Origin: Pigoraptor vietnamica
Taxonomy: Eukaryota; Opisthokonta; Filasterea
Length of the DNA: 21,602 nt
Direction: 5' to 3'
Assembly (NCBI GenBank): GCA_943704525.1
Contig: CALSCQ010001025.1
Location: 1 to 21,602, forward strand
Position numbers and translations under genes: made by a program. How positions within the stretch are numbered: position 1 is the stretch's first letter; each line of letters opens with the position of its first letter. The notes under the pieces were generated by a model. The model made no database searches. It saw only the letters and a program-made list of their open reading frames with translations, and was not told where the DNA came from. Shown piece after piece: positions 2,209-21,602 of this stretch.

Positions 2209-5200
2209 ATGGCGCACTACGCGGGCATGTTCGACGACACGTTCCTTGACGATGGAGGTCCCTCCGGGCACGTCGATATCAACGACCTCCAATTTGGCGC
2301 TCACCTTCTGCCGGACGACGGAGTTGCGCCGATGGAGTACGAGTGGGTGTGGATGCACTCTTTGGACACGACGGGTGTTTGACCGACTGCATGTTGCCCT
2401 TTTATCCTTCTCTACGGACAGCGAGTATGTGTACGGATACGACGACGATGCTGCGCCACCTCATGCAGCGCACGACTACCCGAATACAATGAACGACTAT
2501 CCCAAAGGTACTGATCCTCAGTGCACGAAGCCCTGTTTCGCCACTAACCATGCTCTCAAAGCGGACGAGATCGAAGACTTTGAGGGGCCAGCGTTCGCAC
2601 ACGGCGCGCCTGCGTATGGTCAGGGAATGTACGACGATCATGACGCGCCTATGCTTCGAGAGCCGGCGTACGACGAGCCCGAGTACGCGCCTCCTCGTCG
2701 CCAAGCCGCGCTCGGGACCGGCCGAGGCGTCGTGCCGAGTGGGCGCCCCATGTCTGCGCCGGGAGGCGTGAACCTTCGTAGCGTCATGGAGCTTGGTAAG
2801 TAATGGACGAGCAATTGTATTGTGGGCGCAGTTGGCTGAGGCTTGACACACGGTGCGCAGAGAGCGAATTCCGCGGCGTCTTCTCGTTCCCCTACTTCAA
2901 TAGGGTCCAGTCCGACTGCTTTGACGACGTATGTAGCTTTCTTTCGCTCCCACAGCCAGAGCTAGATGGGATCACACTGACTTTTTTGCGAATAACCACT
3001 TTTTACAGCTCATGCACTCGGACGCTCCGATTGTCGTCTCTGCGCCGACGGGTTCCGGCAAGACGGCTCTCTTCGAGCTTGCGCTTATCCGCATGATAAT
3101 GCGCGCGAGAGACACCCCGGGCGGAGTGGCAAAGGCGAAGGCTGTCTACATGGCGCCGATCAAGGCCCTCTGCTTCGAACGTTTCGAAGACTGGAAGGCC
3201 AAGTTTGAGCCGCTTGGTCTGAACTGCAGGGAGCTCACGGGCGACAGCGACATCGAGGACTATTACGAGTTGCGCGGAGCGAACCTCATCCTCACGACCC
3301 CCGTGAGTGTGCCAACTTGCGTTTCGCTGCAGTGTGCACTTGCATTACCTCACACGTGCATTTGTTTCACAGGAGAAGTGGGACAGCATGACGCGCAAGT
3401 GGCGCGACAACCAGTCGCTCGTACAGGAAGTCCGCCTCTTCATGGTAGGTCCCATTCTTTTGAGTGCGCCTGTTTTTTGCATTGACACAGTACTTTGCCC
3501 GCTGCAGATTGACGAGATTCACACCCTCAACGACGCCACCCGCGGGGCCACCATCGAGGCCGTCATCAGCCGCATGAAGACGGTGCAGTCGCACACGGAC
3601 GCCGCCATGCGCCTCCGCGGGGAACTGCCCGAGAACTCGAGCGATTCATCGGTGCGATTTGTTGCCGTGTCCGCGACGATCCCCAACATTGAAGATGTAA
3701 GTATAATGGCGCCGTTTTGCTGCTCTCGATCAATGTTGCAACTTACATTCTGCTGTGTGAAGCTGGCGGAGTGGCTCGGACGCCCGAATGCCCACGCGCT
3801 GTACCGCAAGGTGGACGCGTCGCTGCGCCCCGTGCCCCTCACCGTGGAGGTGGTCGCGTATCCGGACTCGAACAACGCCTTCAAGTTCGACATGAATCTG
3901 AACTTCAAGCTCTACGATCTCGTCAAGTCGCGCGGCAACAACAAGCCCGCCCTTATTGTAAGTGCGCATTCCTGATTGTACTGCTACGATTGATTTGCTC
4001 TGACGTCGCAACAGTTCTGTAGCACGCGGAAGAGCGTCCAGCAGGCTGCCGCGCAGCTTCTCAAGCAGGCGGGCGAGGCGCGTCGGATGGAGGATCGCTT
4101 CGTCAAGTCTCCGGAGATGCGGCAGAAGTATGTCGTGTTGCGCGAAGGAGGGTTGTACGTGTAATGTGTGCTCACACCTGCGTTGCACTTTGCTGCAGGC
4201 TCCAGAAGGCGTGCGCGTCTATCAAGGACAAGGCCCTGAGGGGTGAGAGTTGTCACCGAAGCGTATTCTGTCCCAACGTTCGTTTACCTGCCCATTCGTT
4301 GCCCAGACTTGATGATGGCCGGCATTGGGTACCATCACGCCGGCCTCGACGTGTCGGACCGCAAGTGTGTCGAGAGGGTTTTCATCGACGGCGACCTGCC
4401 CGTGCTGTGTGAGTTGTGATTGTGCCGCTCGTGTTCAGGATAGCGCACGAGTCTTATATATGTTATGTTTCGTTCGCAATCTGCAGGCGCTACAAGCACG
4501 CTTGCGATGGGGGTAAGAATTCCCGAGCACCAACAATCGGCGCTATGCATAGCCTCACCTGTTCCGTTGTCCGCAGGTCAACCTCCCCGCCCACTTGGTC
4601 ATAATCAAGTCCACCGAGCACTACGAGGGCGGCATGGTGTGCGAGTACTCCGAGTCGCAAATTCTTCAGATGATGGGGCGCGCCGGTCGTCCGCAGGTGT
4701 GTGTGCGATCTCTCCTCCCGCGCTTTTGCATGCGTGTCTCGGCACTTCAACTGCTCGTGCATGCGTAGAAGTCTAAGTGCTTATGTGAAATTTTGCAGTT
4801 TGACACGAGCGCGACGGCGATCATCATGACAAAGTACTCGTCCAAGCGCAAGTACGAATCGCTCGCGTCGGGCAGCGAGGTCATCGAGAGCAGGTGGGCA
4901 CTTTGTGGATGTCGCGTCTTTTCACGTGCAGCGAAGTGTGTGACTAAACTATTGACATGCTCATCGTACGTTACAGTCTTCATCTGAATCTCATTGAGGT
5001 AAGTACGACGATGGGTTGAGCCTTGTTTTCCCTATGCATTAGACCCTGTAAACTTGTACCCGCACACCTCGCAGCACATCAACGCGGAAGTGGTTCTGAA
5101 GACCATCACCGACGTGTCCGTTGCCCTTGACTGGATCAAGTCGACCTTTCTCTTCGTGCGAATTGGCAAGAATCCCGTCCGCTACGACCTCCCTCGCGAG

Positions 5201-8200
5201 TTCACCCGCGAGCAGATGGAAGACCGCTTGCAGGCGCTGTGTTTGGACAGCCTCAAGCAGCTCGCGCAGTACGAGCTCGTCGTCATGGACGATGACATGG
5301 GCCTCACTCCGACCGGTGCGTGTTTTGTGTGCTTAATCACATCGCAGTCCCTATTTGCTGCCTAACAGATTGTATCCTCTGACTGACTAGTGCATTTGGC
5401 AACTCGTACTGCCTTGATTTTAGACACGGGCAAGCTGCTTGCGCGCTACTGCATCGCCTTCTCGACCATGAAGGGGTTCATCACAAACCTTCCGGCGCAC
5501 CCGACGATGCAGGAGCTGGTGTGTGAGAGGGAAATCTTCTTGTGCTAGAGCGCAAAGAGAGGCACCTGCTCCGTACACTGCGCGATGCGTACCCTGATAG
5601 ATCGACTGCCCCTTTGCAGCTGGACGTCTTCGCCAGCGCGAGCGAGTTCCATGAGATGCGGCTGCGAGTGACTGAGAAGAAGGCGTTGAACGGCTTCAAC
5701 ACTTCGAAGGACAAGCCTCTGCGGTACGAAGCTATGGTCACACTCGGCCTCTTCGACCTGATCGTCTGATCATGACCATGCCGTCTGCAGCTATCCGATC
5801 AAGGGAAAGATCAAGACGACCGAGCAGAAGGTCTCGTGCCTAATCCAGGTGCGCCTGCATTGGTGACGTGTCTGTTGGAACGATGCAAATTTACAGAAAA
5901 GTCGTGATACCCTTGCATTTGCAGGCGACCCTCGGCGGGGCTGCTATTGCCGACTTCTCCCTCAGTCAGGATCGCGAGGTGGGGTTCGCGTTGAATGGCA
6001 TCGTCCCAATTGCACGCGACTCATTCGGCCCTTCCTTACGTGCAGCGCATCTTCCGCGCGGGGACGCGCATTGCGAAGTGTACGTCGCGGGTTGATTGGA
6101 CGTTTGTTTGGAACCCAATTTCCTTTTTGCGGCACTTACTATCAGTTTCTTTGCTGCAAATGCAGGCCTGGCCGAGTACATTAGCACAAAGAGCGACTTT
6201 GATGCGCTGGTTCAAGCCTGCACGCTGTGGGTGGCAGGGAGTCCGGCCCTATGCGCTTATCCCTGGTCATACTGAGTCCCTGTGCGCCTATACCTGGTCA
6301 TACTGAAGCGCTGCTTGATTGTTCCTTCCAGTGCGCGCAGCATGAGGGTGCGTCTGTGGGAAAACTCCCCCCTTGTCGCAAAGCAGATCGACAAGATCGG
6401 TGAGTGGGCCCCTATGTCGAAGAGCGTCCCGCATACCAAAATTGTGCTTATGACTCGATTGATGAGCGCAGGCGAGAAGATGGCGGGACTGCTTGCGACT
6501 GCCGGGTTGACCTCGTTCGAGAAACTCGAAGAGGCGTCGTCCACGACGATTGAACTGGTGGGCGCCGCTCTCAATAGAATGACCGTCAAAGGTTTATTCT
6601 GACAGTCCTTCGTTGTCTGCAGGTCGTCGGGCGAAACCCGCCCTTTGGCGCACAGGTACCTGCGGCGTTGCATTGTCTGTAGGCAATATGTTTCTGACAT
6701 ATGAATTGCGATTCCGGCATTCGTTGGTTACTTCAGGTTAAGGATGCAGTTAGCCGCATTCCTCGCTTCAACGTCGATGTCGAGCAGGTGAGCGCAAAGC
6801 GGACACCATATTTCAAGTGCAATATTGTCTTCGCTTTGAGTCGCGCCCAGCCAGCTGGGATTCCGCTCACCAACTCTGAAACCGCTCTGTTTTGCATTAC
6901 AGGTCGGCGCGCGCGCCATCAAATCCGCTGAGATAGAAGTTCGCGTGTCCCTGGCGAACCACGCCCGCATCTTCGGGGAGGGTGCGACCCGATCGACCGT
7001 CGGGCACGGGTCCATCATCGTGGCTGTCGGCGACAAGGGAACGGGCGTCCTCTTCTTCCACAAGCGCGTTATGTATGCCTTTGTTTGCGATCCGATACGC
7101 AGACATGGTGCAAAAACGGCTTGGTTGACTCTGCGAGCACTTTTTTTCAGGGAGTCGATGTTCGCTCAGTCGCCAGTGTGGTCGCGCAAGGTCACGATCG
7201 ACCGGCCCGACGATATGGACGACGAGTTTGTGGTCAGCATCCGCGTCATCCACGAGAGCCTCGGTGAGTCGCAGGAGGGCCGCTTTACACCTTGAATCCG
7301 TGGCGAATGAAATCGTTGCGCACCGTTTTCACTCACACACACATACTCTCTCTCTCTCTCTCTCACTGTTACTTCGTTTTGCAGTGGGCGTTGATCGGGA
7401 CGTTAAGATGGCTCCCGAGTTCCTCCCGAACCCACAGCGCAAAGTTAAGAAGGTGACGAAGAGCAAGAAGGCCGTAGCTGCTGCTGCGGAACATCTTGTG
7501 CCGGACCAGGTGCGTGATAGCAAGGGTGCGGCTACCTGTTGTTCTCAGTGTCTGACACGTTATTGTCGTAGGACGATCTGGCCGAAGTCGACGATGACGA
7601 CGCTCTTAACGACGCGATACTCGTCGCCATGAGTGGTGTGGAGGAATACGCGTCGGTTACGCGCGGAGTTACGTACACTCGCGACGAGGGCGAGGTCGGC
7701 AACTTCGAGATCACGTGGGAGATGCGCGACGACAGTGGCGATGACGGTACGTTTGAACACATTCTCCAATTTCGCGTTGCATGTCTTACGCCGTACCTGT
7801 GCGCAGGTCCCATAAAGTGCGGACACAAGTGCGCCAACAAGACGACGTAAGTCTCAAGACATTCCATTTTGCGACAGTCTTACTTCTGCTGTTCTAACCG
7901 CGAATTGCCTCTTGTTTTAGCTGCATCCATGCGTACTGCAATGCCATTTTCTCAAGTCTTCCGTTGTTCTAATGCGAATTGCCTTTTGCTTTAGCTGCAT
8001 CCACTCGTGCTGCAATGCCGAGGCGCGTGCGAAGGCTCAGCGCAAGCGCAAGGCCGCCGTTGCGAGCGAGGAGGTGTGTTCGCAATGCGCCAAAGTTCTC
8101 CCCCTCGGCACAGCATTGGCAGGGCAACCCCTAACGCCTTGTGGCTTGCTTGTCCATTCAGTCGGCGGATACGTCCGCCAAAAAAAAGCGCAAGCCACGG

Positions 8201-9133
8201 TCCAAGGTTGAGAGAGTGCCCAAGAAGCCTGCGCGTGAGTCCAGTGATTCCTCGTACCACCGCAGGTGCGTGCTGGTGTTGTGCACCACCTTGAAGCTGA
8301 GAGTTTGCGCACGTTGCCTGGCAGAGACGTCCGAGAGCGAGAGTGCGTTTGCGCTACAGCGCGCGAAGCAGGTGGCCGCAAACCAGCGGCAGGAACATGC
8401 AGTGTCGGGCCGCATGAAGCTCGATGGCTCGTCTAAGGTGAGCGGCTACGTCGTTGTTGTAAACGGCTTTGGGCTCGTAGCAAGAGGGACTTACTAGCAG
8501 CGCCGAATAATGCAGTCGCAAGGAGCAGCCGAAATGGCGCGTGTCGCCCAGCACTTTGCGTACGAGCCGCACAATGTCCGCGGGGCGCCGTCGGCCGTAA
8601 CGGCGCACGCGACGCCGGGGATCGGGGCTCAACGCGCATCTTCCTCGACAGTGCCGGGAGTTGCCAACTCGGGGGCATCGCGCATGCCGCATCAAGGGAC
8701 GCACCCGGCCACGCAGTCGGCGCGCTTCGCCGCTGCGCAGCGGAATTACCCGACGTCGGCCGCTGTCTCTGCCTACGGTCCAAGCGGCACTTCTGCTCCC
8801 ATCGCGGCCAGCGCCCACCCGCATCCCTACGGACGCAATTTCCGCCACGAGCCCCAGACGTTGGCCTCCACGGCAGTCCCTGGCCACGCGCAGCTGGGTC
8901 GTCACGTGTACCCTTATCCGCGGCCCACAGTGCGTCCACACGGTGACTCTGGCTTCGGGGACGGTTACAGCATAGGAGGCGCGAATGGGATGCCGCGCGC
9001 TGTCCCGATCATGCGAGTGCAGCCTGCGTGGGCGCCTCAGCCGCCGTACGGGGCTCTTTCGGGATGTGACGGCGGCGTGCGCCCCGTGGCCAGCCGCAAC
9101 TGCGACGAGCTCTTTGCAGGCATACTCAACTAA
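2209..9133 (+). CDS. HFM1: MER3/HFM1-type meiotic DNA helicase, 35 exons, complete
   Basis: An ATP-dependent 3'-5' DNA helicase of the Ski2-like group. In other eukaryotes it extends recombination intermediates and promotes crossovers in meiotic nuclei. Exons: 2209-2348, 2422-2507, 2562-2795, 2861-2928, 3009-3302, 3373-3444, 3508-3696, 3763-3957, 4015-4127, 4199-4242, 4307-4408, 4487-4512, 4577-4696, 4799-4893, 4977-4998, 5075-5315, 5424-5518, 5620-5723, 5791-5848, 5925-5978, 6046-6079, 6166-6226, 6332-6399, 6472-6557, 6623-6655, 6737-6787, 6903-7072, 7151-7263, 7385-7509, 7572-7746, 7807-7846, 7995-8073, 8162-8234, 8325-8437, 8516-9133. The sum is 4191 nt (1396 residues), with all introns GT-AG and in phase. 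Visible in order: FPYFN..QS Q-motif region, Walker A APTGSGKT (188-195), DEIH (300-303), [40 protein letters not shown] (552-561), a Sec63-like domain (about 610-990), a Cys/His knuckle (1094-1109) and an Ala/Ser-rich disordered tail. DEIH and the C-terminal knuckle favour HFM1 over Brr2. The extreme N terminus and exon 35 acceptor are least certain. Confidence 0.93.
6247..6308. repeat. 31-bp tandem duplication in HFM1 intron 22
   Basis: Two adjacent 31-base units (6247-6277 and 6278-6308) share the core CCTGGTCATACTGA and differ at about five positions. The pair lies in the 105-nt intron between exons 22 and 23. Each copy ends in TACTGA, which resembles a branch-point sequence, so the duplication may supply two branch sites. 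Confidence 0.85.
7331..7365. repeat. CA/CT microsatellite in HFM1 intron 28
   Basis: A short CA repeat runs into about ten CT units inside the 121-nt intron between exons 28 and 29. It contributes to the pyrimidine-rich stretch before the acceptor at 7383-7384. Confidence 0.9.
7864..8017 (+). repeat. Duplicated acceptor plus exon start in HFM1 intron 31
   Basis: Two imperfect tandem copies (7864-7943, 80 bases; 7944-8017, 74 bases) each contain a pyrimidine tract, a TTTAG acceptor and the beginning of an exon. The downstream copy gives TGC ATC CAC TCG TGC TGC, encoding C-I-H-S-C-C, which completes the zinc knuckle. The upstream copy reads C-I-H-A-Y-C and then reaches an in-frame TAA at 7970-7972. 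The upstream copy therefore looks like a degenerate decoy now lying inside the intron. Confidence 0.85.
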
Positions 9134-9228: not shown

Positions 9229-11016
9229 TTAATCAATGAGTTTGCGCACGCGACTTAGCAATTTGCGATCAATACAGTAAGCCCGCATCACGCTCAGGAC
9301 GCATACGCGCTCAAGGCACGCCGCCCCTCGATTGATGTTGTTGCACTCGTTCAGTATCAGCGTGTGCACGCCGCCCAGCGCAGACACGTCCTTCACGTTG
9401 TTACAGCGAGTGAGGTTCAAGCGGTGCACGCCGCCAAGCATCGACACGTTGCGAACTTTCGTGTCCGTGAGGCAGAGGTCGTATACGCCGCCGAGCCGTG
9501 ACGATCGATTCCGGAGGCTGAGCCTGTGCACGCGCCCCAACGCAGACACATTCTTCACTTTGGTCCCCCTGAGCCGCAGCGTGTGCACGCGCCCGAGCAT
9601 GGAGACGTCGGAGATGTTGTTGAAACTAACGACCAGGACGCGAACATTGCCGAGTGCGGACACGTCCGTCACACACCCGTTGTGAAGAATGAGAGTGTGA
9701 ACCCGTCCCAGGCCGCTCGCGTCTTTGACGTTCGATTCGTAAAAATCCAGCGTGTGGCAGTTCGCGAGTGCAGAGACGCTGCTCTGCGGGGCGATATTCA
9801 GCCAACTCACACGCAGCGTGTGGATGCGGCCGAACGGCGTCACGTCCACCTTCGCGCTCTTGACGTCCGAACCTGTCAACCACAGCGTATGGCACCCACC
9901 GAACGCGCGGTACGCCGCGTCAGAGAACGTGGAATGAGGCGCGATGGTAAGCTCGTTCACGCTGTTCAGAGCCTCTACACCGGTCAGATTCATGGACTCG
10001 TTATCAATCGCAAGCGTGTGCCAAGGGACGACACGTCGAGAGTATCGACGCCACCGAGCGGATACGTCCGCCGCGCGCACACAGCCGATGAGGATGAGCG
10101 AGTGGACGCGCCCGGCAGCCACAACGTCGCAGAGATTGGGCGATTGGGCGAGGTTGAGAAAGTGGAGGGCGCCGAATTCGGGGGGGGGATCGAAACAAGG
10201 GACGAATTGCGCCACGACAGCGATCGGAGGTGCGTCGTAGACGGCAGCCCCCGAATGTCGCCGCAACCCGTGATCGACAGATTTCGCACGCTGACGAGGG
10301 CGCTGACGTCCACGCCCCGCATGCTCCCGAGTGCGACGGTGGTCGCGTCCTTAAGCGCAGACAGGTCGTGCGGCTGTCCGCCCGGCCGCGTACAATTGTG
10401 GAGTGTGACGCGCGGCACTCCCGCGACGCAGTTTAGGTCCGTCGTCACCATGCTCTGAAGCAAAACAGATCGCGCGTTGCGAAAGGCAGGCAGGCTAACC
10501 GGCGCCTTCGCCGTGCTGCCCAGACGGAGCACGCGCGCGCCGGCAAGGAGCGGCGCGTCCGCAGTGGTGGAATGTTACCGTGTGCACGTTGCGCAGACTG
10601 TCGAGAGAGGCATAGACCGCAGAGACGTCGTCGTCGGCCGGCCCAGTGCCTCCAAAGCTGTCACTCAAGTCCCAGGGCCAATACAGCTCTGAGTCATCGG
10701 ACCTGTAACTATCGAACATATCGCTCTTGGTCCTCACAATCGTCGCCGTGTGCACGGCCCGCGAACGCCTCGAGGCAAGCTTCTCGGTCGCATACGCGCG
10801 ATACGACGACAGCACGAGCCGATCGACGGGGATCCACCGCTTCAGTTCCTCCCGAAAGGCCGAGTCCTCGATGAACTGCTTGTTGTAGAGCGGCCACAGG
10901 CGGTACAGGCGCACGCGCGGCGTCGTCTTCGCAAGGGAGGCGACGTCGGCGTTCGACAGGTACGACGCAATGTGGCACAGCACGATCTCCGATGGGAGAT
11001 CGCCAAAGGACGCCAT
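9229..11016 (-). pseudogene. F-box plus leucine-rich-repeat protein, frame broken twice
   Basis: Translation from the ATG at 11016 gives an F-box-like N terminus (LPSEIVLCHIASYLSNADV, about residues 7-25), the motif that binds Skp1 in SCF ubiquitin ligases. It is followed by a tryptophan/arginine-rich stretch and then leucine-rich repeats. The repeats are 19-22 residues with the pattern HTLxLxxxxVxDVSALGxV. At least ten are clear between 9260 and 9950 and more degenerate ones lie upstream. The first frame closes at 10495; the repeats continue in a second frame from about 10560 to 10180 and a third from there to the TAA at 9229-9231. The two breaks are near 10555-10563 and at a run of nine G (plus strand) at 10180-10188. 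This is either a decaying gene or a sound gene with sequence errors. An in-frame GT-AG intron (10578-10455) is an alternative for the first break. Substrate unknown. Confidence 0.75.
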
Positions 11017-11645
11017 TATAACACGCGCGTAAGGGCTGCAACGAGTGGAAGAACACACAGTAGTCACAGACGCAAAAAGGAGAAAACGGCGGGAAAAGGG
11101 CGGGAGCAGGGAAAGTATCACGTGATCGGCTAAGGTGCGGCTGTCCGGACACCACTCCGATATCCTAAAAAGGCGCGAGCAAAATATAAAAACGGTGGCT
11201 TCGCTCAAACGGCGCAAGCACACGCCCTGGCCTGTTCGGGCATTGTCGCGTGGCATTTCAGTTTCAGTGAGCATTCCGAAAGCGCGGGAGGCTGTGGGAG
11301 GGGGTGTGCCGAGTGCTGGATGAGGCGTCTGGCGGCCGACCCGACTGGTGCCCAGGCCATCCCACTGAGGCGGCGCCGGCTCGGCCGAGTGCAACTGAGA
11401 GGCCGGCACGGTTCAGTTCGCCAGCAACCGGACGGTCGCAGCGGTAGCAATAAGGCACGGAGCGTCGACCGAGATGGGTTCAGCGGGGGTTGCGTCAGTG
11501 CATAGTACTCTGATCGGCTCCGCTCGGCCACGCCAGCCGGCGAACTGAGCACCCGATCGCGAGTCCGGGTCCATCTCAGTGTCCGTACTCACAGAGGGTC
11601 TCCGCGGAAGACTTGCGCCGACCCAAGCGGATCGGCGGTGGCATA
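11017..11645. promoter_or_regulatory. Divergent promoter region between genes 3 and 4
   Basis: About 630 bases lie between the start codons of the minus-strand F-box/LRR gene and the plus-strand receptor gene. A perfect 10-base palindrome ATCACGTGAT (11117-11126) contains the CACGTG core bound by bHLH or bZIP factors in many eukaryotes. A TATAAAAA stretch (11185-11192) could be a TATA box for the plus strand, although the first ATG of gene 4 is 450 bases further on, which would need a long leader or a leader intron. Both assignments are inference from motif only. Confidence 0.4.
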
Positions 11646-14600
11646 ATGCGGTGGCGTGCACACAGCCCCTCTTCCGCACGTGGTGCGCCTCTTTCCCTCC
11701 TTTTTTATGAATGTTCGCTCGTGTTGTGCGTCGTCGGACTCGTTGACGCGCATCAACTGCCCAATCGCGCGTCTGAAGGCACGCACGCCAGCGAACCACA
11801 AGCGCCCTCCATTCGAACGCTTGTGGAAAACGAAGTCGTCCGTCGTGCACGTGATGTGGACCTGGACCTCGCGGGAGAAATCGAGAGGCGATTGAACTCG
11901 AGCGCAGCGGCTTCTTCCGTGCTCATCAACCTCTCCACATGGGCCGGCGCGAGTGGCGCCGTTGAACTTTCGCATCCCGTGGCGGTGCGCGGCGAGGGAT
12001 TGACGCTCTCACTCGTTGGCGGAGAAGGAGAGATACGCTTGCAATTGCGGTGCGCGCTCGACTCGGATGCGGCCTCGGCGTTCACCGTATCGCAAGGCGC
12101 GCGACTAGAGGCACGCGGCGTCGCGTTCGAAGGGTGCGCGGTGCGCGTGGACGCAACTGGCGGAGGGGTGGATCTGTCACGGTGCGATTTTGCGACCTCT
12201 GCGTTTGCATTTGTGTGCGAGGGCGGCCACTCTGTCTTTGAGGCCGTTGTGTTTCGCCATTTCTCGAACGACACCGACGTCGGCGCCGAAATTTTCGGCG
12301 GGTCCCTTCTAGTCAATGGGACGGCGACGCTTTCGCTCAACGCCACTGTTTTCGAGAAAACGCGTGCGGTGCAGGGGGGCGCCGTCCGCGTCTTGGGCAA
12401 TGCGTCCGTGCGCGCCGTTAACACTTTGTTTTCAGAGTGTGCCGCGTGTGCGGGTGGCGCCGTTTACGTGGGCGACCATGCGTCGTTCCAGTGCACGGGA
12501 TGTGTGTTCAACGCAACGCGCGCGCGTGCAGAAAGCGAATGGAGAGAGTGCGAAGACCCCGCACTTACAGCGGGCGCCGGTTTCGGCGGTGCTCTTCATG
12601 CGGCAGAAAGCGCGTCCGTGAACATGTCGGACTCGACGCTGACACTCTGCGACGGGAAGTACGGCGCTGCCGTGTACGCCGAAGGTCGCGCGTCGCTTTC
12701 GCTCGCCAGTGTTCGCATCGCAGGAGGAGACGACACTGCCACGTGCGAGTACGGCTGCGCGTTTTACGTGACGCACTCCGCCGACCTCAACGCCTCGCAA
12801 TGTGAGTTCACGAGCCTTCGCGCACGCGTGTCGGCGGCCGTGGTGTTCGTCGGCGAATCTGCGTCCGTGTCTCTCTCCGACAGTACCTTATACGAAGCGA
12901 CCTCCATCCTCGGTGGAGGGGCCTTTGCGCTCCGGAACGCGGCATCCCTCTCCCTGTCGCGCGTGGTCGTGGGCGCAGTGACGGTCGGCTTCGGCTCTTC
13001 CGCCACTGCTGCGCTGCCCGCGCCCTGCCCACTTTCGGACGAAGCCGGTGATGGGGTCTTCGTGCGTGCGGAGGGCACTTCCACGGTGTCCCTGTCGCAC
13101 TGCTCCGTGGGCGTGCTCCTGAGCAGGTGTGGAAGTGGCGGCCTTGTGGCGGTGTTGGAGGGGGCGACGGTGCGTGTGTTCAACGCAAGCGTCGCCTCTT
13201 CATCCGCTCTACGCGGTGGCCTTCTCTCTGCGCGCGGCAATGCGACGGCGTGGCTGTCGGGCGTGTCGTGCGGACAGTGCCACGCGGGCCTCAGCGGCGG
13301 CCTGGCATATGTCACCGGCAGCGCGAACGTCTTGCTTGACAATGTCTCTGCCGACGGTGCCGTGGCGCGACTCGGCGGCGGCGCTTTCTGTTCGGACGGC
13401 CCCTCTTCGTTGCTCCGTGTCACTGGTGCCCGTGTGGCCTCGGCGATCGTCGATCCCTCCAAGTACGGTTCCTGGAATTCGTATCCCTCGAACGCGCCCG
13501 CGGACTTGCTCGGCGGCGGCGGCATTCTCTGCGCTTCTGGCGGCGCACGCGCGGACATTCGCGATGCCATTTCAGACTCCGTGTATTCGGCCGGCGATGC
13601 CGGCGCGGTGGTTGTGTCTGGACGCGCGTCTGTTACCGTCGCCCGCGTGCGCCTCTCCTATGCGATTGCTGCGCGCTCAGGAGGGTTTGCGAGCGTGCGC
13701 GGACGCGGCAAACTCGACGTGGAAGACATGGAGGGAGTGTCGTTCGCGGCAGTGGACCGCGGCGGTTTTGCCGAGATATCGGAAGAGGGCGCGCTGCGGG
13801 CGCGCAATGTGTCGCTAACGGCGTCTTCTTCGAACAGGTCGCTGGGCGGTTTCCTCCATGCCGCGGGTTCGAGCGCCGCTGCACTCGAGGCGATCGTCGT
13901 GGGATTCTGTGCCGCGCACGGCGGCGGCGGCTTTGTGAGTGCGGCGGACGGTGCACGCGTGGACATTTACGACGTGCGCCTGGACACCGCCGAAGTGATG
14001 GCACTGCAGCCCGCGGGCGTCGAGCTCGGGGGAGGGTTCGCGGCCGTTGTTGGCTCCGCGTCACTCAGTGCGATCGCCATCAGCGTCGGGGCGTCGCGCA
14101 GCAATTCGAATGGAGGGTTCTTCAGCACGCACGACAGCTCGACAGTCCGTGCGTCGGCGTGCAATGCAGTCGCAGCAACAGCCGCGGTCGACGGCGGATT
14201 CGCGTGTGCTGTGGGGCAATCGGTTGTTGTGCTAGATGGTGTGGGCGCGACGACTACAAGCGCGGCCCAAGGATCTGGCGGTGCGGTGTTTGCGGGCGAC
14301 TCTGCTCGTGTGGATGCGGCCAATATCACCTTCGCGCACTCTGGCGCGTGGATGGACGGCGGGGTGGCGGCGGTGCGAGGGTCCGCTAGCGTCTCGTTTA
14401 CGACTTGTTACGTTGCAGATGCGCAAGCGGGTCAGCGTGACGGCTTCGTTTCTGCGGTTGGCGGTGTCAATGTCACGTTGAGCGAGGTCAACGTCACGTC
14501 CTGCTCTTCGCTTTCCGACTGGGGCGGTTTCGCGGAGGCTGCGGGGGACGCCACGTTACTTGCCGTCGGGGTTACCGCGGGACGGACGGTGAGCGCCCTC

Positions 14601-17600
14601 AGCGGTGCCGTCGTGGCGGCACGTGACCGGGCGGTCGTGAACGTCGCGCGCGTGTCAGTGTCGAGCGCCTCTGCAGCGCGCGGATGCAGCGGATTTGTTG
14701 TGCGTGGGCGTGCAAGGCTGTCCATCGCGGGCCTCTCCATTGCCGACGTCGCGACCGGCAGCATGGACGGTTGGCTGTCTGCACCAAAGTATGCGACCGA
14801 CACATCGGACGTTAGAGTTGCCGTCGCACTCGCACGTGATGCGAGCATCGGTGCCTTCTGTGCGCGATTAGGCCTCGGGACGAGCGCGAGTGCACCTGCG
14901 CACTTCATTGTCGATTCGCCGCACGTGTGCTACAGCGTGCCACCCGCGGACGTGACATCCCTGCACATATCTGTGGACGATGACATCCCATTTGCTATGC
15001 CGCTGGGGGAGGCGCCCATAGGAGCGCCGTTTCTGCACCTCAGCGGGCCGACGTACTTTTTCCAAGGCGTGCTCGTGAACGGTGTGGTCGAAGTTACGTC
15101 CGCCGCGCGCGTTACGTTCCAGGGCACCGTCTTCCGCGACACTCCTACGGCGGTATCGGGCGAGGCGCTCTTCGACGGCTGCCTATTTCTCGGCAATTCG
15201 CTCGTGTCGCTCACTGGCTTGGGCCGCGCACTCTTCATCAACTGCACGTTTGACGGTGCAACGGTGGCGGGTTTTCTGTCGGCACGGGAAGCGACACTCG
15301 TGTCTCTCTTTGGGGGGTCCGTCACAGCCACTGCGTCAGCCACCGACGGCGGCTTTGCGCGCGTGGAAGGCATTGCATCGGTAGAGCTTGAGGGCGTGCA
15401 TGTGGCGGCGACTGAAGCTCTCGGAAGCGGCGGGTTCGTCCGCATGGGCAGCGGCGCGGCGGACGAATCGTCGCTGCTCTCCCTGCGAGAGTGTGTTGTG
15501 GAGCGTGGCGTGGCCGCGATGATGGGCGGTATTGTGCACGTCGCTCCCGGCAGCCACTTTGTCGACGTGTCCTCGATACGCGTGTTCAATGCCTCCGCGA
15601 AATATGGGGGGTTTGCGTCCCTGTCTCTCGGCGCATCGATCGCTGTGCTGAACGCGTCTATGGACAACTGCGCCGCGTCGGGCGATGGCGGTGTCTTTCA
15701 CTTTGACGGTGCGACCCGCGCCGTGATCACCTCTGTAACATCGACATCTCCCAGCGCTCGTGGAAGCGGCGGGTTCGTGTATTCTAGCGGTGCGCGTGGC
15801 ACCGAACTGCGTGTCACGGCCGCCGTGTTGAGGAATGCGCGCGCAGGTGGCGATGGTGGCGTTCTTGCAGCGAGTGGCCGTGACGATGTGCGCGTGACAC
15901 ATTCGCTCGTAGCAAATGCGTCGGCCGGAGGGTCAGGTGGCGTCGCGTACGTCGCGCCAGGGGAAGGAGGCCGCTTCTCTTTCGTCGGTTGCGACATTCA
16001 AACGGCCTCCGCGCTCGCTTCGGGCGGTGTTGCGCGTGTGTCTGGGCGCGCGCCGCTCTCCTTCGACGACTGCAGAATCCGTGACACCGCAGCCCTGGCG
16101 GATGGTGGCGTCGCTGCCATCGATGAGGGGACCTTGGCCGTGGTCACGTGCTCCATACGCTCCCCCGCCGCCGTGCAGGGCAGTGGCGGCGCATTCCACG
16201 CAAGGGGCGGTGAGATCGTGTTCAACGACACGTATGTCGCGGGCGCGCATGCGGCCCTCGGCGGTGGCGTGCTGTATCTCTCTGGGGCGTCTCGTGCCGT
16301 GTCGCGCAACGTAAGCGTCGACGCGGCCTCCTCCTCTCTCGACGGCGGTGCCGTCCTCCTCCTCTCCGGAACTTCGTCGCTCACTACCATTGACTGGCGC
16401 GTGCGTGGGGCGGTCGGAGAGACGTACGGCGCCGTGGCCGCGAGCGCTTTTGCGGTGGCCGTTGTTGTTGGAGCGCAGTTGTCCGACTGTGCCTGTGTCG
16501 GGGGACCGGGCGGCGCTGTGTCACTGCGTGGGAGTGCGCACGTGACGCTGACGGGCGTCCGCATTACGAATGCGTCGGCGGCGGCGGCGGGTGGGGGCAT
16601 CGCAGTCTCTGCGAAGGCACACTTGGATGCGTCGGACCTTTTTATCGACACGGCGCGCACGGACGGTGACGGCGGAGCGATTGCGCTGGAGAGGGACGCG
16701 ACCGTGTGCCTGAATAGCTCTGAAATTCGGTCGTCGGTTGCGAGCGGATCGGGCGGTGCTGTGGCTCTGAGGGGTTCCAGCGCGCTTATCGCTACCGGTA
16801 TGCTTGTTGTGCGTGCTCAGGCGAATACGGGCGGCGCGTTTTCTGTCGCGGACGGCTGCTCCCTTTCGCTTCGCGCCGGGCGTGTTGTCGATGCAACGTC
16901 CCTTGGCGATGGCGGCGGCTTGTATGCTCGCCGCGCCAACATCACTGTAGAGGACTCCGTGTTTGTCGAAAGCGTCGCCGGTGTGCTGCCATCCCTCGTG
17001 GGCGGCGGCGGATTCGCATACGTGGATGACCCGCTCTCCCTCCGCATGAGGAACGTGACTGTGGACGGCGCGACGGCGGCCCTCGGCCCGGTCGTGTACA
17101 CCGCCTCTGCAGTGTCCGCGAGCGCGAGCGCGCCGACGGAGGACGATGCCGTGCGTGGCGTTGTCGCGACGCGCTTTTCGGCGGCTTATTACACGGGAAG
17201 TGGCCCGCGCATGCTCGTTTCTCCGCCGGCGCGGCTCGCGACGACGGTAACGGGAGTGTCCGGACCGACCGGACTCGGGACGCTCGAAAGCGGCGGCCGC
17301 CTGCTTTCTGTCTTCGTTGAGGCCAGGGACGCGTACGGCAACGCCGCAATTTTCCCGCCATCCCATCCCTTTGGCGCGCGCCTGTTTGTTATGTCCGGAG
17401 ATTGTCTGCTTTCCGGAGACCTCTCGCGTGAGTTTCGACTTGGGTCGAATGTGTCGTTCACCGACGTGCGCGTGTCGGTGCGGACGGCGCTGTCCGGCCT
17501 TCGCAACACGCACTGTGAGGTGGGCTTCGCACCCACCGGTCCCCTCACCGCACTGGACGACCCCGTTCTCAAATCTTCCTTCGTCGTGGATGTCGCGCCG

Positions 17601-18356
17601 TGTGGGAGCGGCCGCACGCTCTCCGTCGAAACTGCCACGGGCCTGCTCGTCTGCGCACAGGGGCCCAGCAGCAGTAACGCGAACGCTGGGATAGTCGCGA
17701 CTGCGGTGGTCGTTCCGGTCGTTGTCGTTGCTTGCATTGCCGTCGTGGCCGTGTTCGTCGTGCGGCGTGAGCGCCAGAAGCGCACGCGCGAGTACCTCGA
17801 AGCATTTTCCAAGACACACCTGAGTACGCGACCGGCGCTCATGATGCTGGACATACCACGTGACCAGCTGGAGCTCGGAGAGACGCTGGGCGAGGGGCAG
17901 TTTGGCGTCGTGTACAGGGCGCAGGTACGTCGGTGTAATCGTATTCGTCTCGGTTAAGTGAGAACATGTATCTGCGTCGCGTGCGTATGTGCGTGTATCG
18001 CGCGAACGTATGGTGTGGAAGTGTGAGTTACCTGCGCGTGGATGCTCGTGTGTGTGCTGTATCCATTGGACGCCGACGGGGATCTCGCTGCGACTGCTCG
18101 GCAGGTGTTCGTCGACGGCCGCTTCCGAGTGTGCGCCGTCAAATCGCTCAAGGGAAACGCGAACGTCCAGGCGCGCGCCGAATTCCGTGGGTGTCGCCAG
18201 GCGTCAGAGCGGAGTCAGCCCAATGCGCGCGCTGAACGAACAATTCGCGTGTCTCAGTCTAGACTCGTCTATTTTGTCTACGGTATTCAGTTAGCTGACT
18301 CGTTTCTCCTTCCTCACACATACTACCGACACTATGACCCAGTCGCTGAAGCGGAG
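11646..18356 (+). CDS. Giant beta-helix-repeat receptor with truncated kinase domain
   Basis: Exons 11646-17924 and 18105-18186, then probably 18343-18356. The ATG at 11646 gives a basic start and a hydrophobic stretch (about 17-35), a likely signal peptide. About fifty repeats of 26-27 residues follow, each opening with a GG(A/F/V) turn. They resemble the polymorphic-outer-membrane/pectate-lyase-like parallel beta-helix and form two blocks (about 85-1070 and 1190-1850). Many N-x-S/T sites suggest N-glycosylation. A filamin-like domain with VEARDAYGN lies near 1857-1975, then one membrane helix (about 2017-2040) with a following RRERQKR stop-transfer patch. The cytoplasmic part begins a kinase: LGETLGEGQFGVVYRAQ ends exon 1, CAVKSLKG (the VAIK lysine) is in exon 2, and AEFLAEAE (helix C) crosses into exon 3. 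No HRD or DFG motif follows. It is therefore a receptor tyrosine/TKL-like kinase whose catalytic lobe is missing here. Ligand unknown. Confidence 0.85.
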
Positions 18357-18498
18357 GTGCGTACATGCCATGGCTGCCGTTCGCAGCCTCTTCAATGCAC
18401 CTGTGGTCAGCCTCGCATTGCGCATTCCCAATATCGGTGCGCTTGCCGAACCCCCCCCCCCCCCACCCCCCCTCCCCTCTCTCTCTCATCCACCACAC
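18187..18498 (+). other. Kinase remnant and junction to gene 5
   Basis: This 312-base stretch holds a likely intron (18187-18342), the 14-base exon 3, and then a shifted frame from 18361 to 18436. The shifted frame reads MAAVRSLFNAPVVSLALRI and resembles the helix C to strand 4 part of a kinase, but it is out of frame by one base with exon 3. Past 18436 nothing kinase-like is seen. The rest is the C-rich tract and the leader of gene 5. Confidence 0.4.
18451..18486. repeat. Long C-rich tract followed by CT repeat
   Basis: Fourteen C, one A, seven C, T, four C and then alternating TC. The minus strand is G-rich with several runs and could form a G-quadruplex. The tract lies between the end of recognisable kinase sequence and the ATG of gene 5, so it could be part of a promoter or leader, or mark a rearrangement or assembly join. 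Confidence 0.85.
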
Positions 18499-21400
18499 AT
18501 GCCAGACAACGAAGTGATGTCTCCGCAGTCTCGCTCGCATTTCTTCTCGGCGGATGCCCCCCTCTCGTTTGCCGATCTCGGCCCGTCGGCATCGTCGTCT
18601 TCCGCTTCGTCCCTCTACGAACAGAGCGTGCTGCCGGACCTCTTCGACGACCCCTTTGGCTTCACGGAGTCAAACTACAAGTCTTTTGCGGGTCTTGAGA
18701 GCGGAGTGTCGCGCCGCGGAGGCGTCCTGGAGGCGCCTTCTTCGGCGTCGTCGTCACGTGACGCGACGGGTGGCGGTGTCGACCGCGACGATGGTCCCGT
18801 TGGCGTATTTGCAAACAGTGCCGCGCATTCATCCGCTTCACGCAGCGAGACGGTTGCGCAGCGCCTCTTGCGCCTTGAGCGCGACGAGCTGGCGGAGCTT
18901 CTTCACTGGCGGCCGTCGTTTTCAATGGGCGAGGCCGTGCAAGCGCCCGTCGCGACCCTGGGCGCATCTCCCCCGCAGGAGGCATTCGTCGTCGGCGCGT
19001 TTGCCGATCGCGTGCAGCTCGAAGGCCCGCCCGTCGCTCGCCCCGCTTTCGCCCAGCCGCCCGTTGTTGTGCGCGCGGCCGCGCTGTCGGACACGGCTTC
19101 GAACGCCAGCCGTCTTGCGGAGCAGCGCTTCCTCGAGCTGACGCAGCGCCACCTGTTGCGCGGGTCGCGTGGGCCTGCGCAACCCGTCGAGCGAGAGCCG
19201 TCTTCGGGCCGCGTCCGCCCATCGCCCGCCGCCGCTTCCGACCCCACTGCAGCCCCGGATGCATCGACGGTGTTCCCGTGGCTTGCGCGGTGGCGGCGCC
19301 CTATTGAGTATGACGAAGAGGATGATCCGGAGGAGGTCCAGGGGGGCACCGAAGGAGGAGGCGGCGGCGGCGGCGGCGGCGGCGGCGACGGGTGGACGCA
19401 CTGGCGGAGCGCTGCCCCGGCGCTCGTCTCTGCCGTCAACGAGGCTGCGACGGCAGCCACGGAGCCACGCGAGCGAGCCAGCGGAACGGCTGCTGATGAT
19501 GAGAGCGCGGAATACGACAGCGATTGGGAGACAGCGAGTGACGAGGAGCACGGTTCCGCCGGGGTTGTCGAGAGGACGCGCCGCGCGGCGGAGGAAGAGG
19601 GACTGAGCGCAGTCCACGCGCAACTGGAGGCCATTGATCGCCAGCTGTCGGCTTACGCAGCCGCGCGGGCTGCCGAAGCGGCGCCGACAGCGCAGCAGGC
19701 ACCTTCGTCGCCGTCACGTGCCAGAGACCACTCGTCCCATCGCACGGTGCGCTCGCCGTCACCCTCGCGTGATCGAGAGGGACTTCACCACGGTTCCCCG
19801 CGGGCGCAGAGGGCGCGCACTGATGAGGTCGCGCCGCCTTCCGTGCCGCTGCTGGCAGAGTCGTCGTCTGCGCACGTAGGTCGCGGGGAGTGGTGGCGCC
19901 AGGATCGACCTCGGCGCGAGGCCGCCCACGCGAGCCAGCAGGCGACGCAGAGCCGTATCGGTGAACAGGTGCGCCGCGTGGAGGAGGGCTACGGATTGCT
20001 GGCGCAGCTCGAGGCCATCGACGCGGAGGTGGAGGGTATGACGCGCGAGCTGGAAGCGGCTGCGGCCGGTGCGCCCACGCGCGCGAGCCGCACGCTCGTG
20101 GCGGACTTTGTCGACTTGCAGGATCGCCTGTCGTCGATACGCACCCGCTTATCAGCGTCTGGCCTGGAGGGCGGAGGGGAGGCTGCGGCAGTGCCAGCGC
20201 CACAGCGCGCACATTCGACGTCGCCGTCGCGTGCCGATGCGGGCGCGTCGAACGGCGTGCCGCACGCTGACGACCGTGCCGCCGGTGACGGTGACGGGGA
20301 GAGCGACGAAGACGACTTGCCGCTCCTCATGACGAGCGAAGACGATTCCATGCCGGAACTCACGTACGACTCGGACACTTCTGACGGCGATTGGGCTTCG
20401 CTCGCGGCAGAGCTTTCCAGCGCGCACGCGCGTGCCAACGCCGCCCGCGCCGCTGCGTCCCGCGTTCCGCACGTGGCGCCTTCGGCCGCGCGCATTTGGA
20501 GCGACGGCGAGACCTCGGACGAGAGCGATTCGGACACCGAAGGGAGCGACGTGCCTGATCTCGTGACGTCGAGTGACGACGACGCAGGGGCCGATGTGCT
20601 GCCCGCGCAGGCGTCGCCGCGCGCGAGGGCTTCGCGGGGGTTGTACACGGTGTGGAGCCGCGCCTATCTCGAGCGGCAGATGGACCTGGAGGTGGACGAG
20701 GTGCCCGAGCTGGTGACGTCATCAGAAGAGGATTCCGAGGGCGAGAACATGATACAGGAACTCGTGCGGCAGCTGCGCCCATCGCGACACGCGCGGGTGA
20801 CGCCGTTCAGTGCGCTGTCGGACGACGGGTCGGAATCGGAAGGCATGTCGGAAAACAGCGAGGATTACGAGACGGACAATGATGGCGACGATGACGATGG
20901 TGAAGAGAGCGGCGAAGAGAACCCTCCCAGAATGCGTCACCGTGACGACACGAACGATGCGCACTCCCCCTTTGGCCCGGTGATGTCCCTGCGCGAACTG
21001 TTGGACGTCATTGACTCGATACGGGCGCACCATTGGACGGACCCGCTGGCGCCGCGGCCGAGAGAGGCGGCGAGTCGGCGTCGCGCGGTTCCCCAGCGTC
21101 GAAGCGAGCCGGACGCGGAAACGCTCGCGAGGTGTCGCCGCACGCGCGACCGGTGCGACCACCGCCGGCGCGAGTTTTTGCAGGGCGTTCGCGCGCGCAA
21201 TTTCCCGGGAGGGGCGCACGGTCACGTGACGAAGACGGCCGAAGCGCCGGTCGAGTTTTTCGTGTCTGCGCGTCCGCCGTCGCCTGCGAAGGCGCGGCAC
21301 ACGGTTCCTCCGCGCGCAGTGTGTGCCGACAGTGACGATGAGACGAGCGGCGGCGTCGTTGCATCTGCCTCAACTGCGGGCGCTGTGGCCGATGGTGCTC

Positions 21401-21553
21401 TTGAAGCCAGCGCCTGCGGGATCGATGGGCAGAACGAGGCTTGCGTGGACGCCGTAGAGTATGTGCGGTGCATTTCGGCCGAGGGCGAGGAATTCTTTGT
21501 GCCCCGGCGGGTGATGTGCCACTCGCAGCTGGCGCGGCGAATGCTAGACGGAG
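18499..21553 (+). CDS. Acidic disordered protein with Elongin C/Skp1-like C-terminal start (partial)
   Basis: The frame from ATG 18499 stays open for 1018 codons to a GTAAGT donor at 21554, and the gene continues past the window. An in-frame Met lies at 18517. Most of the protein is low complexity: Ser/Ala/Pro/Arg-rich with acidic clusters and an 11-glycine run (GGC repeat, about 19354-19386). Two possible coiled-coil stretches share AQLEAID (near residues 374 and 502). Four repeats of a hydrophobic-Pro-acidic motif occur: LPLLMTSEDD (607), MPELTYDSD (618), VPDLVTSSDDD (685) and VPELVTSSEED (735). The last visible part, VEYVRCISAEGEEFFVPRR from residue 986 and ending MLDGG, matches the start of Elongin C/Skp1 BTB-like folds as I recall them, and these are ubiquitin ligase adaptors. 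Elongin C is normally only about 110 residues, so the long N-terminal extension is odd. A possible next exon begins at 21598 after a 44-nt intron. Function is unproven. Confidence 0.75.
19354..19386 (+). repeat. GGA/GGC triplet repeat coding for polyglycine
   Basis: Two GGA and nine GGC codons in a row lie inside gene 5 and encode eleven glycines. It is an in-frame trinucleotide microsatellite that probably varies in length between strains without breaking the frame. Confidence 0.85.
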
Positions 21554-21602
21554 GTAAGTATGGTCAGCTCACAACCTACCCACCACCACCACCCCAGATC
21601 GG

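Follow-up and report, generated by a model that had tools for sequence, protein, structure and literature searches.

The 21,602-nt stretch of DNA analysed here (hereafter the window) ends within a long forward-strand open reading frame that, in our view, probably encodes a Skp1/Elongin C-type adaptor domain fused to a long acidic, lysine-poor arm predicted to be disordered, a reading that depends on the sequence past the window end. The arm would comprise 979 residues with only 3 lysines (18499-21435, + strand). It is followed by what appears to be the opening half of a POZ domain of the Skp1/Elongin C type (21457-21553, + strand), aligned to positions 5-31 of the 62 in the Skp1_POZ profile.

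Such a fusion had been proposed in an earlier note on this DNA. The splice-site, start-codon and coding evidence fit the proposal, and Elongin C/Skp1 is the identity that sequence comparison supports best for the last 32 residues, but the window holds no more than half of the domain.

An unbroken frame from the acidic arm to the window end

The + frame containing position 18334 runs open for about 1,102 codons, between a stop at 18292 and the window end. This is longer than any stop-free run in our simulations, in which 300 sequences per Markov order gave longest runs of 628, 713 and 744 codons at the three orders. Possible start codons are Met 18334, 18499 or 18517 (+ strand). The unbroken passage from the acidic region into Elongin C-like residues described in the earlier note is thus confirmed (Met 18334 or 18499 to 21553), as is its placing of the exon end at 21553; a donor of very high score follows at 21554. 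Counted from Met 18499, the in-window protein has 1018 residues, with 17.3% D+E, 101 R and 3 K.

We scored the ORF in 150-nt blocks (n = 21) with a codon-usage model derived from the upstream exons of the helicase and the receptor. Of the 21 blocks, the ORF frame outscored both other forward frames in 20 (in block 19684 by a hair) and all five other frames in 16, including both blocks covering 21184-21483; the test penalised stops in other frames, which slightly helps the ORF frame. In block 21034-21183 codon usage shows no preference for the ORF frame and favours other frames. When 21436-21552 is scored by itself, the ORF frame receives -0.02, compared to -0.63 and -0.26. A test restricted to synonymous codons did not discriminate between frames and was negative (-0.216) at 21436-21552.

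Identity of the last 32 residues

The 32 residues encoded at 21457-21552 (EYVRCISAEGEEFFVPRRVMCHSQLARRMLDG) share 13 identities with a stretch of Elongin C (ELOC) which we take to be human, in an ungapped alignment from the first strand of the domain (BLOSUM62 score 55). Compared with the same stretch, the second-best of 43,014 six-frame segments scores 20. The reversed stretch scores 28 at best in the window, and none of 2000 shuffled versions reaches 55 anywhere in it (highest 51).

Because the family was chosen after the sequence had been seen, Pfam provides a fairer figure than this comparison. Skp1_POZ (PF03931) is the sole family listed for the 32-residue piece (E 0.086, 13.5 bits compared to a cut-off of 21.9) and for a 39-residue piece (E 0.15, below cut-off). 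For an 83-residue piece, Pfam lists Stanniocalcin alone (E 0.094, below cut-off) and Skp1_POZ is absent; for the 1018-residue protein it lists no family. When the PDB was searched with the 39-residue piece (E <= 10), 19 of the 20 rows were Elongin C, as near-identical chains with a best E of 0.58, and no Skp1 chain was among the 20. The list is headed by an unrelated protein, cytochrome c oxidase subunit 12 (E 0.13). With the 83-residue piece, the same search returned unrelated rows and no Elongin C.

As a yardstick, the matching half of human Elongin C passes the Skp1_POZ cut-off (E 9.4e-7, 29.3 bits), and in the PDB the same stretch finds 1hv2, presumably yeast Elongin C (E 0.04), as well as SKP1 chains (E 1.7-1.9). 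With relatives found at E 0.04-1.9, the value of 0.58 is therefore within the range of true relatives. On these comparisons, half a domain is seen to yield weak numbers between distant relatives, and by the same scores the 21457-21552 piece matches Skp1_POZ far less well than human Elongin C does.

Single-sequence AlphaFold folds the 39 residues as strand-strand-helix (E6-13, E19-26, H29-38) with a mean pLDDT of 81.9 (87, 98, 87 and 52 by block), and strand-strand-helix is the expected start of the POZ fold. Foldseek searches with this model (E <= 10) gave 334 matches, none at E <= 0.001 and no Elongin C among the 50 of 334 listed. A model of the 190-residue end piece has low confidence (mean pLDDT 42.3) and is useful for the linker only.

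These results have to be weighed against a chance resemblance, in which the acidic protein simply continues and the hairpin and helix of its last 32 residues belong to another domain, BTB-like or unrelated. In favour of this explanation are the Pfam E value of the piece and the lack of any family for the full protein, together with the lack of Elongin C among the 50 Foldseek matches listed and the unrelated PDB rows, which appear for the 83-residue piece and stand on top for the 39-residue piece. Yet chance sits poorly with a score of 55 when the runner-up reaches only 20 and no shuffle reaches 55 (though one comes to 51), with an ungapped match that begins at the first strand of the domain, and with a model that has the strand-strand-helix order. 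We consider a chance resemblance unlikely.

Splice sites and starts near the join

The many short introns of the window suggest eukaryotic DNA. Donor and acceptor profiles were built from 28 introns of the helicase gene (57-121 nt, median 76), with ends picked by eye, and the thresholds (acceptor 5.0, donor 6.4) are the third-lowest training scores; with profiles from a single gene, an odd site may escape. The top donor in 17800-21602 is GAG^GTAAGT at 21554-21559 (+ strand, phase 1), whose score of 11.6 ties with the best of the 28 helicase-gene donors. The intron that follows it probably extends beyond the window end. We also considered a 44-nt intron ending at 21597 and rejected it: it is shorter than any of the 28 introns, and the acceptor score is under threshold.

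With the helicase-trained profiles, no acceptor of at least 5.0 was found in 21185-21528 and no donor of at least 6.4 in 19970-21553. The acidic ORF also has no in-frame Met between 20983 and 21514. Because neither an above-threshold acceptor nor an in-frame Met is found near the join, one exon most likely encodes both the arm and the start of the domain. The earlier note had allowed for an internal promoter or start, and named transcripts starting close to 21400 as a refutation; no start or splice site was found for a short gene beginning there, which is therefore unlikely.

A related explanation invokes two genes or transcripts, with an internal promoter driving a second, shorter product of Elongin C type, which would overlap the acidic gene and start at Met 20983 or be spliced from a small upstream exon. 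Met 20983 is indeed in frame and opens a predicted helix in the 190-residue model, and there is one low-scoring acceptor, at 21184 (5.8). This acceptor has no partner within the intron range of 57-121 nt because no donor reaches the threshold in 19970-21553. The stretch without in-frame Met also argues against this explanation, and a start at 20983 would leave 158 residues before the domain, compared to 16 in human Elongin C (1vcb_B). We regard two separate products as quite improbable.

The acidic arm and its motifs

Having favoured a single exon, we return to the arm of the putative fusion. The arm is probably disordered, as judged from composition, with only 20983-21552 modelled. A 94-residue stretch before the Elongin C-like piece (21175-21456, + strand) has pLDDT below 50 in the single-sequence model and is a probable unstructured linker.

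Four related short acidic motifs are found in the arm (20317-20733, + strand): LPLLMTSEDD, MPELTYDSDTSD, VPDLVTSSDDD and VPELVTSSEED. Between VPDLVTSSDDD and VPELVTSSEED, comparison by eye suggests that the peptide is kept while synonymous sites differ. The idea, also from the earlier note, of an arm that recruits SUMO-modified partners looks weak on motif content, as only one of the four, EDDLPLL, fits a SUMO-interaction consensus.

Searches for relatives gave no confirmed match: tblastn confirmed none of 22 pattern matches to the 190-residue end piece in the viral contigs (viral_contigs) and none of 20 pattern matches to the 1018-residue protein in the genome contigs (genome_contigs), and a search of phages gave no match at E 0.01.

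Lysine depletion

The 3 lysines of the 1018-residue protein compare to 16.0 expected under a null keeping codon-position composition (obs/exp 0.19). None of 2000 draws was as low, nor was any of 5000 in a separate run. The lysines lie at positions 61, 912 and 931, leaving a single lysine-free stretch of 850 residues. Translated in the other five frames, the same DNA gives 19, 4, 20, 18 and 24 lysines. In the 21457-21552 piece, the three lysines of the human Elongin C stretch are replaced by R, P and R.

A 2023 study (PMC10665810) defines a lysine desert as at least 150 residues or 50% of the sequence without lysine, and links such deserts to the ubiquitin system and to receptors of cullin ligases, for example VHL. 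By this definition the acidic protein contains a lysine desert, with 850 of the 1018 residues of its in-window part in one lysine-free stretch.

The neighbouring receptor exon is lysine-poor too (obs/exp 0.54; 34 of 2000 null draws reach a value this low), and the K:R ratios of the acidic protein (3:101) and of the receptor exon (11:133) show no significant difference (p = 0.16). Because the receptor exon is also depleted and the ratios do not differ significantly, lysine depletion is weakened as a special feature of the acidic protein. Lysine poverty is further shared by a 207-residue ORF that follows the helicase at 8510-9133 and lacks lysine altogether, and by the out-of-frame reading with only 4 lysines; the helicase core (obs/exp 1.73) and the leucine-rich-repeat ORF (1.25) are not depleted.

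Upstream neighbourhood

The window opens with a run of 28 G (1-28) that resembles an assembly edge. Positions 2861-7746 hold an intron-rich Ski2-like helicase whose nearest solved relatives are ASCC3 (E 4e-162) and SLH1 (E 2e-161), followed by the U5 200 kDa helicase/BRR2. On the minus strand, 9229-11016 contains a leucine-rich-repeat ORF (LRR_4, E 1.5e-5, just below cut-off) together with an F-box-like match that is weak and under the cut-off (E 0.013). It is possibly an F-box/LRR gene, which would be of interest next to a possible Skp1-type gene.

The open exon at 11613-17924 encodes around 2,100 residues, among them a right-handed beta helix (PF13229, E 1.6e-12) and a transmembrane-like hydrophobic segment (a weak match to TM_ErbB1, under its cut-off). 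It ends in the beginning of a tyrosine-kinase-like domain, matched by PF07714 over positions 1-48 of 258 at E 1e-4, just under the cut-off; a guessed extra exon brings the match just above it (E 3.4e-5). We annotate 11613-17924 as a putative beta-helix receptor kinase-like gene. The kinase-like start (17832-18477) is cut short close to a C-rich tract (18451-18477), reflecting either a truncated gene or an assembly misjoin. Because this break lies just upstream, it is uncertain where the acidic ORF begins; the join at 21454 is unaffected.

An assembly error, in which poly-C/poly-G tracts break or misjoin the assembly and the neighbourhood is not genuine, is suggested by the opening 28 G and by a kinase domain that covers roughly the first 50 of 258 profile positions before it ends near the C-rich tract, but such an error would bear on the 5′ side of the acidic ORF, whose frame is open throughout 20983-21553 (though block 21034-21183 is without codon preference), and we consider it very improbable.

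Proposed product and its significance

If the fusion is genuine, one large exon would encode the acidic, nearly lysine-free arm of about 980 residues and then the strand-strand-helix start of the POZ domain, with the remainder of the domain encoded in exons past the window end. The product may act as a cullin-RING adaptor, its POZ domain docking on a cullin and a receptor. The repeated short motifs of the tethered arm could then recruit partners, and the near absence of lysine may spare the arm from ubiquitination by its own ligase. The fullest version, a single polypeptide made of an Elongin C-type cullin adaptor and a client-recruiting, disordered arm of about 980 residues, purged of lysine against self-ubiquitination and carrying VP[DE]LVTSS-acidic docking motifs, is conceivable and we offer it tentatively, as a doubtful extension of the fusion itself.

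Elongin C and Skp1 are normally separate adaptors that are shared among many receptors. If true, attaching one of them to a long arm would create a dedicated ligase module, an unusual form for an adaptor. The lysine-free arm would be a natural test of whether deserts shield parts of a ligase from its own activity. Among the matches listed in a literature search (titles and abstract openings), there was no Elongin C or Skp1 fusion of such type.

Comparison with known adaptors

Elongin C is a short stand-alone protein of roughly 100-120 residues, and its chains in our PDB list have 94-121. In contrast, the domain described here has a long open frame upstream: counted from Met 20983 it spans 474 nt, and from Met 18499 probably some 2,958 nt, which would put about 980 residues ahead of the domain. 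In Elongin C, the C-terminal half binds the BC box, Elongin B and the cullin; in the acidic protein this second half of the domain would lie beyond the window end. The C-terminal F-box-binding region of Skp1 would similarly fall outside the window.

In a cullin survey (PMC2785787), the Skp1/F-box, BTB and DDB1 ligase types are described as ancient, and Elongin-containing ligases as having arisen late, perhaps twice, in animals and fungi; 'Skp1/Elongin C-type' is the safe wording for the domain. By the desert definitions of PMC10665810, the acidic protein resembles lysine-desert proteins of cullin ligases such as VHL, since its in-window part falls under both the length and the percentage definition. 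In VHL-type proteins, however, the desert is on a receptor, whereas here it would be on the arm of an adaptor.
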